Shown here piece after piece: positions 14,478 to 22,251 of a stretch of 37,331 bases of DNA; the stretch's first letter is position 1, and each line of letters opens with the position of its first letter. Source of the DNA: a bacterium (GTDB lineage: Bacteria; Actinomycetota; Acidimicrobiia; Acidimicrobiales; RAAP-2); contig DAHXOD010000003.1 in the NCBI GenBank assembly GCA_027365055.1, positions 1 to 37,331 on the forward strand, written 5' to 3'. A program made the position numbers and the translations under genes. The notes beneath the pieces are model-generated. The model was given only the letters and a program-made list of their open reading frames with translations. It was not told the DNA's origin and ran no database searches.

Positions 14478-17036
<2,559 letters not shown>

Positions 17037-18130: not shown

Positions 18131-18139
18131 CCGGCCGGC

Positions 18140-18862
18140 GTGGATCTCACCAGCTCCTACGCTGACGTCTTCAGCGCCCGGATCCAGGGGCGCTACCGGT
18201 TCTTCGAGACCCGCAACGCCTCCACGATCCTCGCCGCCACCCACCCCGGCCGATGTGCGGAGATCGCCGACGTGCTCGACGAGTTCGACCTGCGCACCAG
18301 CGACCTGGTGGACGCCGGGCGCAACGAGTCTGCACTGGCCGCCCGCCTGAACGCGGCGTTCCGGCGGCGGGGTTGGAGGGAGTCGCGCGTCGACACCACC
18401 ATCCGTCTGGTGCTGGTGCGACACCCCTACCGCGAGGCGGGCGAGACCCGCAAGACGTCCGAGATCACCGAGGTGACCAACGAGGGCTACCTGGTCGACA
18501 ACGTCGCCGACCGGGTGGCGCTCGACGTCGAATGGAACGCCAAGGACGGGAACCTCGACCGCGACATCGGGGCCTACCGCTCCCTCTACGACTCCGGGCT
18601 GATCGACGTCGCCGTGATGATCACCCGGACCTCCGACGACCTGCGGGCGCTCGCCCAGCGGCTCGGCGTGGCCTCGGGCATGACTCCCGCCCGGGCCAAG
18701 ACCATCCTCGGGACCACCACCACGACCAACACGGCCAAGCTGATCCCACGGCTCCAGCGCGGCGACGGCGGCGGTTGCCCCATCCTCGTCGCAGCCATCT
18801 GCGACGCTACCTGGGAAGGCCCTCGGCCCTCCGAGCATCCGGAGTCGGTCGAGCGCCCCTGA
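18140..18862 (+). CDS. BglII-family type II restriction endonuclease
   Basis: A 240-residue protein with the pattern of actinobacterial BglII-like nucleases: FFETRNASTILAATHP near the N-terminus, then ARLNAAFRRRGWRESRVD, then the core VDNVADRVALDVEWNAKDG followed by LDRDIGAYRSLYDSGLIDVA. In BglII the catalytic set is Asp84, Glu93 and Gln95. Here Asp120, Glu131 and Asn133 (VEWN) occupy a comparable arrangement, though the D-to-E spacing is two residues longer. BglII relatives cut AGATCT or RGATCY; the specificity here is inferred, not shown. A methyltransferase gene follows 45 bases later, completing a restriction-modification pair. The GTG start lies nine bases after the prenyl synthase stop. 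Confidence 0.8.
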   Translation: MDLTSSYADVFSARIQGRYRFFETRNASTILAATHPGRCAEIADVLDEFDLRTSDLVDAGRNESALAARLNAAFRRRGWRESRVDTTIRLVLVRHPYREAGETRKTSEITEVTNEGYLVDNVADRVALDVEWNAKDGNLDRDIGAYRSLYDSGLIDVAVMITRTSDDLRALAQRLGVASGMTPARAKTILGTTTTTNTAKLIPRLQRGDGGGCPILVAAICDATWEGPRPSEHPESVERP

Positions 18863-18907
18863 TAAGATCCCTTTTCATTACTTAGATCTTTATGATGGGA
18901 GATTCCG
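18863..18907 (+). promoter_or_regulatory. AT-rich promoter region with GATC sites before the methyltransferase gene
   Basis: This 45-base gap is far more AT-rich than its surroundings. It contains TATGAT at 18891-18896, a good -10 match, and two sites of the RGATCY class: AGATCC at 18865-18870 and AGATCT at 18884-18889. The second lies just upstream of the -10. A GGGAG ribosome site at 18898-18902 precedes the TTG start. It may let the methyltransferase be expressed independently of the nuclease. Confidence 0.5.
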
Positions 18908-19789
18908 TTGGCGATGCGCGAGGAGGCACCGGTCGCACCGGCGCTCCGACTGGTGGAGGACCCGCCGCCGCTCCCGTCGGTGACCGGCGGCTACAAGACC
19001 GTCCTGGCCGACCCGCCGTGGCGGTTCACCAATCGGACCGGCAAGGTCGCCCCGGAGCACCGGCGCCTCGATCGGTACTCCACCCTCGACCTCGACGCGA
19101 TCTGTGCGATCGAGGTCGCGTCGGTCGCGGCCGAGGACGCCCATCTCTACCTGTGGGTACCCAATGCGCTGCTGCCCGACGGCCTGCGGGTGATGGAGGC
19201 GTGGGGATTCCGCTACATCTCCAACGTGATCTGGGCGAAGCGGCGCAAGGACGGCGGGCCTGACGGGCGCGGGGTCGGCTTCTACTTCCGGAACGTGACC
19301 GAGATCATCCTGTTCGGGGTCAGGGGGAGCATGCGCACCCTGCCCCCCGCCCGGAGCCAGGTCAACATGATCGAGTCGCGAAAGCGCGAGCACTCGCGCA
19401 AGCCCGACGAGCAGTACGCACTCATCGAAGCCTGCTCCCCCGGCCCGTACCTGGAGCTGTTCGCCCGGCACCATCGCCCGAATTGGACGGTGTGGGGGGA
19501 CGAGGCCGCACCCGGGATCGAACCACGAGGTCGCCTGCACAAGGGCTACGAAGGGGGGCCGCTCCTCCTTCCTCATCTCGATCCTCACGTTCACATCCCT
19601 GACCAGGTCTCCGACCAGCTCGGGACCAGGTTGAAGGCCAGCTACGAGGCGGGGGCCAGCATCCGCCAGCTGGCCGACGAGACCGGCTACTCCATTGCCC
19701 GGGTGCGCGGGCTGCTGGTACGGGCCGGTACGGACATCCGTCGGCGGGGGCGGACGGCGGCGTCGCCGGCCGCGGCCACCACCGACTGA
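18908..19789 (+). CDS. MT-A70 family DNA adenine methyltransferase with C-terminal helix-turn-helix
   Basis: The MT-A70 fold is shown by VLADPPWRF with catalytic DPPW at 35-38, then LYLWVPNALLPDGLRVMEAW, then FRNVTEIILFGVRG and LELFARHHRPNWTVWGDE. Family members methylate adenine N6. About residues 235-280 form an added helix-turn-helix (YEAGASIRQLADETGYSIAR) of the kind seen in small actinobacterial DNA-binding proteins, which may help recognition or autoregulation. The TTG at 18908 suits the ribosome site; ATG at 18914 is the alternative. Next to the BglII-like nuclease it is the protecting enzyme by position. Note that M.BglII itself is, as far as I recall, a cytosine enzyme, so this pairing differs. 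Confidence 0.85.
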   Translation: MAMREEAPVAPALRLVEDPPPLPSVTGGYKTVLADPPWRFTNRTGKVAPEHRRLDRYSTLDLDAICAIEVASVAAEDAHLYLWVPNALLPDGLRVMEAWGFRYISNVIWAKRRKDGGPDGRGVGFYFRNVTEIILFGVRGSMRTLPPARSQVNMIESRKREHSRKPDEQYALIEACSPGPYLELFARHHRPNWTVWGDEAAPGIEPRGRLHKGYEGGPLLLPHLDPHVHIPDQVSDQLGTRLKASYEAGASIRQLADETGYSIARVRGLLVRAGTDIRRRGRTAASPAAATTD

Positions 19790-19878: not shown

Positions 19879-20319
19879 TCAGGCTGGGGTGGACCCCGAA
19901 CCGGTCGACGTGCCGGTCGTGGGGGGCGACACGTGGCAGACCGACTCGATCTTCTGGGCCCGGGTGGCCAGCGTGGTCTTCAACTCCGAGCTGCCCAAGT
20001 AGGTCGCCGTTGCCCGCAGAAACGCGGCCCGAGCCGGGAAGCCATGGGCCTGGGCACGAGCTGCCCGCGCATCGAGCTTGGCCGGCGCGGTGGTGGTGCG
20101 TGCCTCGATCTTGGCGATGCGAGCCAACCGCTTCGGCGCAGTCGCACAGTTGAGCGTCCGCCCACCGTGATGCGCGGGGGGTGCCGTGGTGACCGTAGCA
20201 ACCGTGGCCGCGCCTGTGGCCGTGGCCGTACCCGTGGCCCCGGCCATCCCGGCCGCACCCCAGCTGAGGGCACCGGCTGCGACGAACGCGGCCGCTCCGG
20301 TGAGGATCTTGTTGCGCAT
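19879..20319 (-). CDS. Small secreted protein of unknown function
   Basis: A 146-residue protein with an N-terminal signal peptide (RNK basic region, hydrophobic 7-26, probable cleavage after AGA near residue 28) and an Ala/Thr-rich spacer. The helical mature part is rich in Arg and Ala, and two cysteines (58 and 128) could form a disulfide outside the membrane. The ATG at 20319 has an AAGGA ribosome site. Long upstream in-frame sequence has no secretion signal and was not included. I do not recognise a family. A direct repeat resembling a PhoP-type box lies about 100 bases upstream. Confidence 0.65.
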   Translation of the reverse strand: MRNKILTGAAAFVAAGALSWGAAGMAGATGTATATGAATVATVTTAPPAHHGGRTLNCATAPKRLARIAKIEARTTTAPAKLDARAARAQAHGFPARAAFLRATATYLGSSELKTTLATRAQKIESVCHVSPPTTGTSTGSGSTPA

Positions 20320-20421
20320 GTGTTGCGTCCTTCCCGCTCCCCGGACGTTCCGGAGAGCACCGTCGATGTGCCGGGCGATCCGGCGACTCCATCCTGCCGT
20401 ACCGGTTCGTCGATCCCGTGT

Positions 20422-20443
20422 GGAGAGTGTGAGGAGAGTGTGA
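20422..20443 (-). promoter_or_regulatory. Direct repeat resembling an OmpR/PhoP-type response regulator box
   Basis: On the minus strand TCACACTCTCC is repeated twice without a gap: a 7-base core TCACACT with 4-base spacers, an 11-base period. Mycobacterial PhoP binds 7-base direct repeats (TCACAGC) spaced by 4 bases. It is 102 bases upstream of the secreted-protein start. The function is inferred. Confidence 0.4.
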
Positions 20444-20510
20444 GGGTCGTCCGCCTTCGACAAGGTGTCAGTGGCCGATGCGACCCAATCCCGACCGGGT
20501 CGAAGATCGC

Positions 20511-21329
20511 TCACCGCGAGTTCCGGTCGAAGATGATCCGCAGCCCATGGAGCGTCAACCACGGCTCCACGTACTCGATCTCCTCGGAGTACGGAGCGAT
20601 CAACTCGGCGAGGCCTCCGGTGGCCACCACGGTGCACTCGCCGAGCACACCCCCGAACCGGCGGCACAGTCCGTCGACCTGGCCGGCGAACCCGTACAGG
20701 GCACCCGACTGGATCGACTCCACCGTCGACTTTCCGATCACGCTTCGTGGCTCGACCAACTCGACCCGCCGAAGAGCGGCGGCGTTGGCGAACAGGGCAT
20801 CAAGACTGATCTGGACCCCGGGGGTGATCGCACCGCCCAGGTACTCCCCGACCGCAGAGATGGCGTCGAAGGTGGTCGCCGTCCCGAGGTCGACCACCAC
20901 GCACGGTCCACCGAACAGGTCGTAGGCACCGACCGCGTTGGCGATCCGGTCCGCACCGACCTCCTTCGGGTTGTCGTAGAGGATCGGCATGCCGCTCTTC
21001 ACGCCTGGTTCGAGCACGACCGCGGGGACGTCGAACCATCGGGCCACCATCTGACGGAGGTTGGCGGTCACCAGCGGCACCGACGACGTCACCGCGATCC
21101 CACTGACCGTGTCGTCGATCCGTAGCCCATCGAGGTCGAGGAGCTGCGTGAGCAACAGAGCGTGCTCGTCGGCCGTCCGTTCGGCAACGGTCGACAGGCG
21201 CCAGTGGTGGGCGAGACCGGTGGGCTCGTCCCCGTCGAGCGGACCGGCGTCGGGCTCGCCGCGACCGGATCCGTCGGCGAACAGTCCGACGACGGTCTCG
21301 GTGTTGCCGACGTCGATGGCGAGCAGCAT
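20511..21329 (-). CDS. coaX: Type III pantothenate kinase
   Basis: Phosphorylates pantothenate in the first step of CoA synthesis. ASKHA-fold motifs are present: LLAIDVGNTETVVGLF (phosphate 1), GADRIANAVGAY, CVVVDLGTATTFDAI (phosphate 2) and GGAITPGVQISLDAL. At 272 residues it has the normal length. The ATG at 21329 follows the nadC stop by one base and has a GGAGG ribosome site, so it is the last gene of the pan-nad operon. Type III enzymes are not feedback-inhibited by CoA (known for the family). Confidence 0.96.
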   Translation of the reverse strand: MLLAIDVGNTETVVGLFADGSGRGEPDAGPLDGDEPTGLAHHWRLSTVAERTADEHALLLTQLLDLDGLRIDDTVSGIAVTSSVPLVTANLRQMVARWFDVPAVVLEPGVKSGMPILYDNPKEVGADRIANAVGAYDLFGGPCVVVDLGTATTFDAISAVGEYLGGAITPGVQISLDALFANAAALRRVELVEPRSVIGKSTVESIQSGALYGFAGQVDGLCRRFGGVLGECTVVATGGLAELIAPYSEEIEYVEPWLTLHGLRIIFDRNSR

Positions 21330-21330
21330 G

Positions 21331-22251
21331 TCAGGCCTCCTTGGGGTCCGCTGGGAGATCGAGGCCCAGGTCGAGCGCCGGTGCCGAATGGGTGAGGGCA
21401 CCGACGGACAGGAGGTCGACGCCGGCGGCCGCCATCACCGGTGCGGTGTCGAGTGTCACCCCCCCCGATACTTCGACCAAGGTGGGAGCAGCCCGCTCGC
21501 GCACGAGCTTCACGGACACCGCCACCTGCTCAGGTGTCATGTTGTCGAGCATCACCACGGTGGCACCCGCCTCCGTGGCCTCTGCCACCTGCTCGGGGCG
21601 ATCGCACTCCACCTCCACCATGCGCCCCGGCCACAACCGGCGAGCAGAGGCGACCGCATCGGCGATGGCCACACCGCCCAGGTGGTTGTCCTTGACCAGC
21701 ACCGCTTCGGACAGGCTTCCCCGATGATTGGTGCCGCCTCCGGCACGCACTGCGGCCTTCTCGAGCGCTCGGAGCCCCGGCGTCGTTTTGCGGGTGTCGA
21801 GCACCCGGACGGACGGGTCGACCGCAGCCACCGCGTCGACGAACCGACGGGTCAGGGTCGCCACCCCGGAGAGATGGCAGAGGAAGTTCAGCAGCGTCCG
21901 CTCCGCGGTCAGGATCGACCGCAGTGACCCGGAGACGACGGCGACCCGGTCTCCGGGACCAACTCGCCCGCCGTCATCGATCTCCCACTGGACCGTCAAC
22001 GACGGGTCGACCTGGAACAGGCTCTCGAGGGCGCAGGCCTTTCCGGCTACGACGCCGTCGGCCCGGCTGACCACCGCCACCGTGCGAACGACGCCGGGGT
22101 CGACGAGCGACGCCGTGAGGTCACCCATCGGCAGCAAGTCCTCGGCCAGTGCTCGTTGCACGGCGTCGATGACCGCTAGGCGAGGGGGATCGACCGGTGC
22201 GCCGCCGTGCACCGTTGACCATCGGTCCCGAGGTGGCAACGGGACGGTCAC
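21331..22251 (-). CDS. nadC: Quinolinate phosphoribosyltransferase (decarboxylating)
   Basis: Turns quinolinate and PRPP into nicotinate mononucleotide. Family blocks seen are RALAEDLLPMGDLTASLV, LNFLCHLSGVATLTRRFVDA, LDTRKTTPGLRALEKAAVRA with the catalytic Arg and Lys, and the C-terminal EVSGGVTLDT. The GTG at 22251 gives 306 residues; a second GTG about 12 codons later is also possible. The nadB stop lies 28 bases upstream. nadA is not in this window. Confidence 0.95.
   Translation of the reverse strand: MTVPLPPRDRWSTVHGGAPVDPPRLAVIDAVQRALAEDLLPMGDLTASLVDPGVVRTVAVVSRADGVVAGKACALESLFQVDPSLTVQWEIDDGGRVGPGDRVAVVSGSLRSILTAERTLLNFLCHLSGVATLTRRFVDAVAAVDPSVRVLDTRKTTPGLRALEKAAVRAGGGTNHRGSLSEAVLVKDNHLGGVAIADAVASARRLWPGRMVEVECDRPEQVAEATEAGATVVMLDNMTPEQVAVSVKLVRERAAPTLVEVSGGVTLDTAPVMAAAGVDLLSVGALTHSAPALDLGLDLPADPKEA

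Follow-up and report, generated by a model that had tools for sequence, protein, structure and literature searches.

It has long been asked how a newly arrived restriction-modification (R-M) system postpones cutting until its host is protected. In CfrBI, LlaDII and AhdI, recognition sites are located in the promoter region of the methyltransferase (MTase) gene, where their methylation exerts control (PMC12707154). The MTases of Ecl18kI, SsoII, EcoRII, MspI and ScrFI, on the other hand, carry a helix-turn-helix (HTH) repressor at their N-terminus, and EcoRII represses only when its sites are methylated (PMC3874152, PMC12707154). The system most similar to the locus described here is R.Nph3I/M.Nph3I of the deep-sea Nitratiruptor phage NrS-3, in which a nuclease of Pfam family PF09195 is likewise encoded next to an MT-A70 MTase. 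R.Nph3I cuts RGATCY and is blocked by m6A, while M.Nph3I generates RG(m6A)TCY (PMC10734518), and RGATCY methylation in this system has been documented by PacBio data (PMC9723563).

The window, i.e., the whole stretch of 37,331 nucleotides analysed here, harbours an R-M cassette of the same composition, which differs from M.Nph3I by a C-terminal HTH on the MTase and by a pair of RGATCY sites in front of the MTase gene; M.Nph3I possesses neither. The features relevant to the following are:

14478-17036, minus strand: clpC
18140-18862, plus strand: Type II restriction endonuclease of the BglII/BstYI family (PF09195), 240 aa, GTG start
18497-18565, plus strand: predicted catalytic core of the nuclease, residues 120-142 (D120 NVADRVAL D129 V E131 W N A K D G N L D R D)
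18863-18907, plus strand: AT-rich gap of 45 bp, from the nuclease stop to the MTase start; predicted promoter/operator of the MTase gene
18865-18870: candidate operator site 1, AGATCC (fits RGATCY), 43 bp before the MTase start codon
18884-18889: candidate operator site 2, AGATCT (fits RGATCY), 24 bp before the MTase start codon and 19 bp from site 1
18908-19789, plus strand: MT-A70 N6-adenine DNA methyltransferase, 293 aa, TTG start, GGGAG upstream
19010-19021, plus strand: DPPW catalytic motif of the MTase, residues 35-38
19613-19753, plus strand: C-terminal HTH_58 domain (PF19575) of the MTase, residues 236-282
20511-21401, minus strand: coaX

Both ORFs are located where the original prediction had placed them, between clpC and coaX, with the nuclease gene starting nine bases (18131-18139) after the stop codon of a prenyl diphosphate synthase gene. 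The two genes display no foreign GC signature (nuclease, 70.1 %; MTase, 70.0 %), and the 45-bp gap between them has a GC content of 36 % versus 69.5 % for the window. A search for direct repeats at the cassette ends yielded none that were convincing. PADLOC recognized a Type II MTase in the second gene and left the nuclease uncalled. Between the cassette and coaX, an ORF without Pfam family (19879-20667, minus strand) is kept in genomes of the same genus at 35-41 % identity; the real gene is probably shorter, since the N-terminal part of the ORF overlaps coaX.

The nuclease matches PF09195 (Endonuc-BglII) with an E-value of 5.5e-29 and a score of 101.4 bits versus a curated cut-off of 26. An AlphaFold2 model (pLDDT 92.9), built from an alignment of 60 relatives, retrieved BstYI as best structural match (Z 17.1; 168 residues, 2.7 A), followed by BglII (Z 15.6), BamHI (Z 13.2) and OkrAI (Z 11.7), with the next entries below Z 5. 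On this modelled fold, the assignment to the BglII/BstYI nucleases is far beyond chance. The structural link emerged only via profile and fold comparison; single-sequence searches of solved structures with the window nuclease or R.Nph3I gave no BglII or BstYI match. BstYI, BglII and BamHI all target sites of the form xGATCx.

The BglII-like core (Asp120, Glu131, Asn133) noticed earlier is present and invariant among the aligned relatives, as is the entire stretch D129-V-E-W-N-A-K-D-G-N-L-D-R-D142 across 81 sequences. The catalytic role, however, is probably to be shifted by two residues to D120/D129/E131. In a profile alignment, weak at 15.5 bits, these three residues fall on D119/E128/Q130 of BstYI, and the window nuclease fits D-x8-(D/E)-x-(Q/E), the spacing D-x8-E-x-E being shared with R.Nph3I. 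Because the BstYI profile alignment and the R.Nph3I spacing agree, Glu131 probably occupies the position of the BglII glutamine; the asparagine proposed for this position (Asn133) thus appears to reflect a register error. By comparison with BglII (AGATCT) and BstYI (RGATCY), the fold is alike and Glu131 probably replaces their Gln.

The MTase matches PF05063 (MT-A70; E = 5e-27, 95.4 bits versus a cut-off of 23.9), and its C-terminus matches PF19575 (HTH_58; E = 5e-11). The DPPW motif is invariant in 39 aligned MTase sequences, and AlphaFold2 placed three helices in the HTH (residues 232-247, 252-259 and 263-272; pLDDT about 90), preceded by a linker of low confidence; the domain architecture initially read from the letters is thereby borne out. 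The enzyme lacks the N-terminal HTH that characterizes MTases of the Ecl18kI/SsoII/EcoRII type: its HTH is C-terminal, resides on an MT-A70 protein and is associated with a candidate operator in which the recognition site occurs twice. Self-repression, established for the former type, is predicted for the window MTase. The search of an open-access library found neither an account of MT-A70 MTases with a C-terminal HTH nor one of an operator of paired target sites for such HTH-fused enzymes.

A search of GTDB genomes for the same neighbour pair showed that each of the 80 nuclease relatives fetched has an MT-A70 gene close by, nearly always adjacent. In plasmid copies, the annotation likewise names a BglII/BstYI-family nuclease and an MT-A70 MTase. 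Because of this regular co-occurrence, the combination, originally regarded as unusual, is normal. BstYI itself was reported to be m6A-insensitive (PMC10734518), whereas the partner of the window nuclease is an MT-A70 enzyme with predicted m6A activity. R.Nph3I belongs to PF09195 and is 32 % identical to the window nuclease; M.Nph3I, an MT-A70 enzyme, is 71 % identical to the window MTase domain. Since these characterized relatives cut and protect RGATCY, respectively, this sequence is the predicted recognition site, and the cassette would constitute an ordinary and complete Type II R-M system. The N6-adenine-protected, GATC-class system envisaged from the letters gains support from the same relatives, with their RGATCY cleavage and RG(m6A)TCY protection (PMC10734518).

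The upstream region of the MTase gene was compared across all loci with enough upstream sequence, i.e., 48 with HTH-fused and 48 with HTH-less MTases. HTH status was set by phmmer on residues 229-283, replacing a BLAST flag over residues 206-283 that proved too loose, and a pair was defined as two RGATCY sites at most 60 bp apart within the 150 bp before the MTase start codon. Pairs were detected in 47/48 HTH-fused and in 0/48 HTH-less loci, versus a background of 25 in 7869 sequence windows (0.3 %) elsewhere in the same loci. Whenever the MTase carries the HTH, a pair of its own target sites thus nearly always precedes the gene. The Fisher p-value of 1.5e-26 for this link ignores shared ancestry and is not to be taken at face value, because few independent evolutionary events underlie it. 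The sites are spaced by 12 bp in 29 loci, 19 bp in nine, 20-24 bp in eight and 55 bp in one; Mycolicibacterium exemplifies the 19-bp and Roseivivax the 12-bp arrangement. The spacer sequence varies, whereas the pair itself is retained. Among 98 sites counted, 86 are AGATCT, seven AGATCC and five GGATCT. An unbiased hexamer scan ranked AAGATC and AGATCT first, with at least two copies in 45 and 39 of the 48 HTH loci, respectively, and with two copies of either in none of the HTH-less loci. The site pair alone is not unique, since the 1.7 Mb genome contains five pairs of the same spacing, counting that upstream of the MTase.

Beyond the set from which the idea was formed, nine of ten HTH loci possess the pair. 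These comprise all seven plasmid or viral loci examined afterwards (L085, L103 and L151-L155) and two of three further ones (L167 and L168, not L166; L165 is on the same contig as L103). The seven are also contained in the 48 HTH loci, of which 40/41 have the pair when they are left out. Besides L166, the pair is absent from L068, where a single AGATCT within a long AT-rich palindrome (acacagaaaaaaAGATCTttttttctgtgt) replaces it.

Based on the computed observations, namely family membership, intact conserved cores, fold, absence of the cassette from relatives and the near-perfect link between HTH and paired sites, the favoured reading, to which a probability of about 0.68 is given, is that of an acquired Type II R-M cassette of the Nph3I kind, specific for RGATCY, with an MTase that regulates itself via paired copies of its own site. 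For the specificity of this copy, the operator function, the repression and its signal, be it methylation or binding, we infer from comparison the following course. RGATCY, or at least AGATCT, would be cut by the nuclease when unmethylated and be protected by the MT-A70 enzyme as RG(m6A)TCY. The cassette of about 1.7 kb would have arrived behind the prenyl diphosphate synthase gene, so that the nuclease is probably read from this housekeeping transcript, while a short AT-rich promoter within the 45-bp gap probably drives the MTase gene, with the sites at 18865 and 18884 serving as operator. Upon entry into a new cell, these sites would be unmethylated and unoccupied, allowing the MTase to be made. 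As it accumulates, the paired sites would be bound by its C-terminal HTH, its catalytic domain or both; alternatively, methylation of the sites would change RNA polymerase binding. Either way, the MTase gene would be turned down, and the arrangement would most likely serve to limit the MTase by negative feedback once the system is established. Both known controls would hence be joined, an HTH on the MTase with an operator made of its own target sites. As a candidate operator arrangement not found in the literature searched, the HTH-fused MTase with paired target sites would represent a variation on known R-M control. A scan of the region for promoters detected neither a consensus sigma-70 promoter nor a terminator; across loci, the position of the -10 element relative to the sites is inconsistent, a TAnnnT -10 following the second site in only 17 of them.

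The strongest competitor to the favoured reading, though rather unlikely, is an ordinary R-M pair in which the sites merely serve the HTH as a classical AGATCT-like repressor site and methylation takes no part in control. The preference for AGATCT (86/98 sites) exceeds what RGATCY methylation alone requires, and Ecl18kI-type MTases repress via their repressor domain rather than via MTase activity (PMC12707154). Moreover, the sites follow the HTH and not the nuclease. Four actinobacterial plasmid loci (L152, L153, L154 and L155) combine an HTH-fused MTase and the pair, here AGATCT, with an adjoining AAA_5 ATPase gene and without a BglII-type nuclease nearby, and because of these loci the sites are assigned to the HTH-MTase. 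They possibly represent an McrBC/LlaJI-like restriction module using the same MTase. However, the core of the candidate operator is the very sequence that the catalytic domain targets, as known from the HTH-less homologue M.Nph3I, and those sites that deviate from AGATCT are mostly AGATCC or GGATCT and still fall within RGATCY; both points speak against this competitor.

The same site variation bears on whether the recognition sequence could be another one, e.g., AGATCT only, as for BglII, or bare GATC. This is unlikely: the predominance of AGATCT in the candidate operators and the mere 32 % identity between the window nuclease and R.Nph3I would agree with it, but the MTase domain shares 71 % identity with M.Nph3I, and the operator sites vary to AGATCC and GGATCT, the former occurring in the window itself. 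Genome composition neither confirms nor excludes RGATCY specificity, because clear avoidance of the site is seen neither in the window (observed/expected, 0.90) nor in the pooled carriers (0.84 versus 0.93 for YGATCR).

Control by pure promoter methylation, as in CfrBI, LlaDII and AhdI, would alter RNA polymerase binding and leave the HTH to another purpose such as target search. The precedents (PMC12707154) and the two recognition sites close to the MTase start fit this scenario, albeit with no consensus promoter found in this region. Unlike in these systems, however, sites of the window type occur almost only with HTH-fused MTases. HTH-less MTases of the same family lack them in the 48 loci counted and also in further loci, where a pair was found in 0/9 and 1/70 (L184, sites 51 bp apart; about 1/75 overall, a few contigs being shared). 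Because HTH-less members of the family lack the sites, these apparently need the HTH and not merely methylation, and promoter methylation by itself is judged quite improbable. Mapped onto the MTase-domain tree, the HTH label requires three changes. These can be interpreted as a single gain and two losses; the HTH may accordingly have been gained once. The losing lineages are the Actinomycetospora/Arthrobacter clade and L037, both of which are devoid of paired sites. In Actinomycetospora (L010-L030 and L064), the R-M pair was found in 17 genomes with an HTH-less MTase and no RGATCY pair; about 160 bp downstream, a stand-alone HTH ORF shares ~45 % identity with the fused HTH.

The nuclease-MTase pair was absent from the 60 other related genomes searched (genus, family and order). 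A PF09195 gene of any kind was detected in 21 of 298 genomes of the order, the window's own genome among them, and the other 20 are all outside the window's family. The gene order clpC, prenyl synthase, coaX is kept in five relatives (L096, L097, L098, L100 and L101) with neither nuclease nor MTase in between. These comparisons identify the cassette as an insert of about 1.7 kb that is recent at the family level. While the presumed acquisition is supported as horizontal, the accompanying notion of stable fixation is unsupported, because the pair is missing from related genomes, several of them with the same gene order. The nearest relative, G003, was discarded as a reference for the insertion boundary, the alignment score (29) barely exceeding that of shuffles (27) and its contig stopping 68 bases from the prenyl synthase coding region. 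That the cassette is a degenerate or orphan remnant with an inactive nuclease and only the MTase at work is very improbable: the absence of the pair from other related genomes and the state of the source assembly (64 % complete, 265 contigs) would allow for it, but the full-length open frames, the invariant catalytic core and the confident BstYI-like fold stand against it.

If the favoured reading holds, the architecture would be simple and widespread, with the protective enzyme carrying its own repressor domain and its own target serving as operator. A fused HTH would then predict paired target sites, and the recognition sequence of uncharacterised MTases could be read from the promoter sequence alone. 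More tentatively, at somewhat less than even odds, the MT-A70 enzymes with C-terminal HTH may form a new class of self-regulating MTases, in which one protein both reads and writes a single DNA word and, at its own promoter, senses the cell's methylation state. The operator would be a pair of own sites spaced by 12 or 19-24 bp, and the class would work with different nucleases, of the BglII type and possibly, on actinobacterial plasmids, with McrB-like AAA_5 partners.

Some variation exists in the cassettes themselves. In L006, L063, L065 and L070, 0.6 to 2.7 kb lie between the nuclease and MTase genes, which suggests that the cassette has received insertions. On a Dyadobacter plasmid (L083), a PF09195 nuclease is accompanied by a small HTH regulator and by a Dam-like MTase of the D12 class, so that this nuclease family also occurs with another class of MTase.
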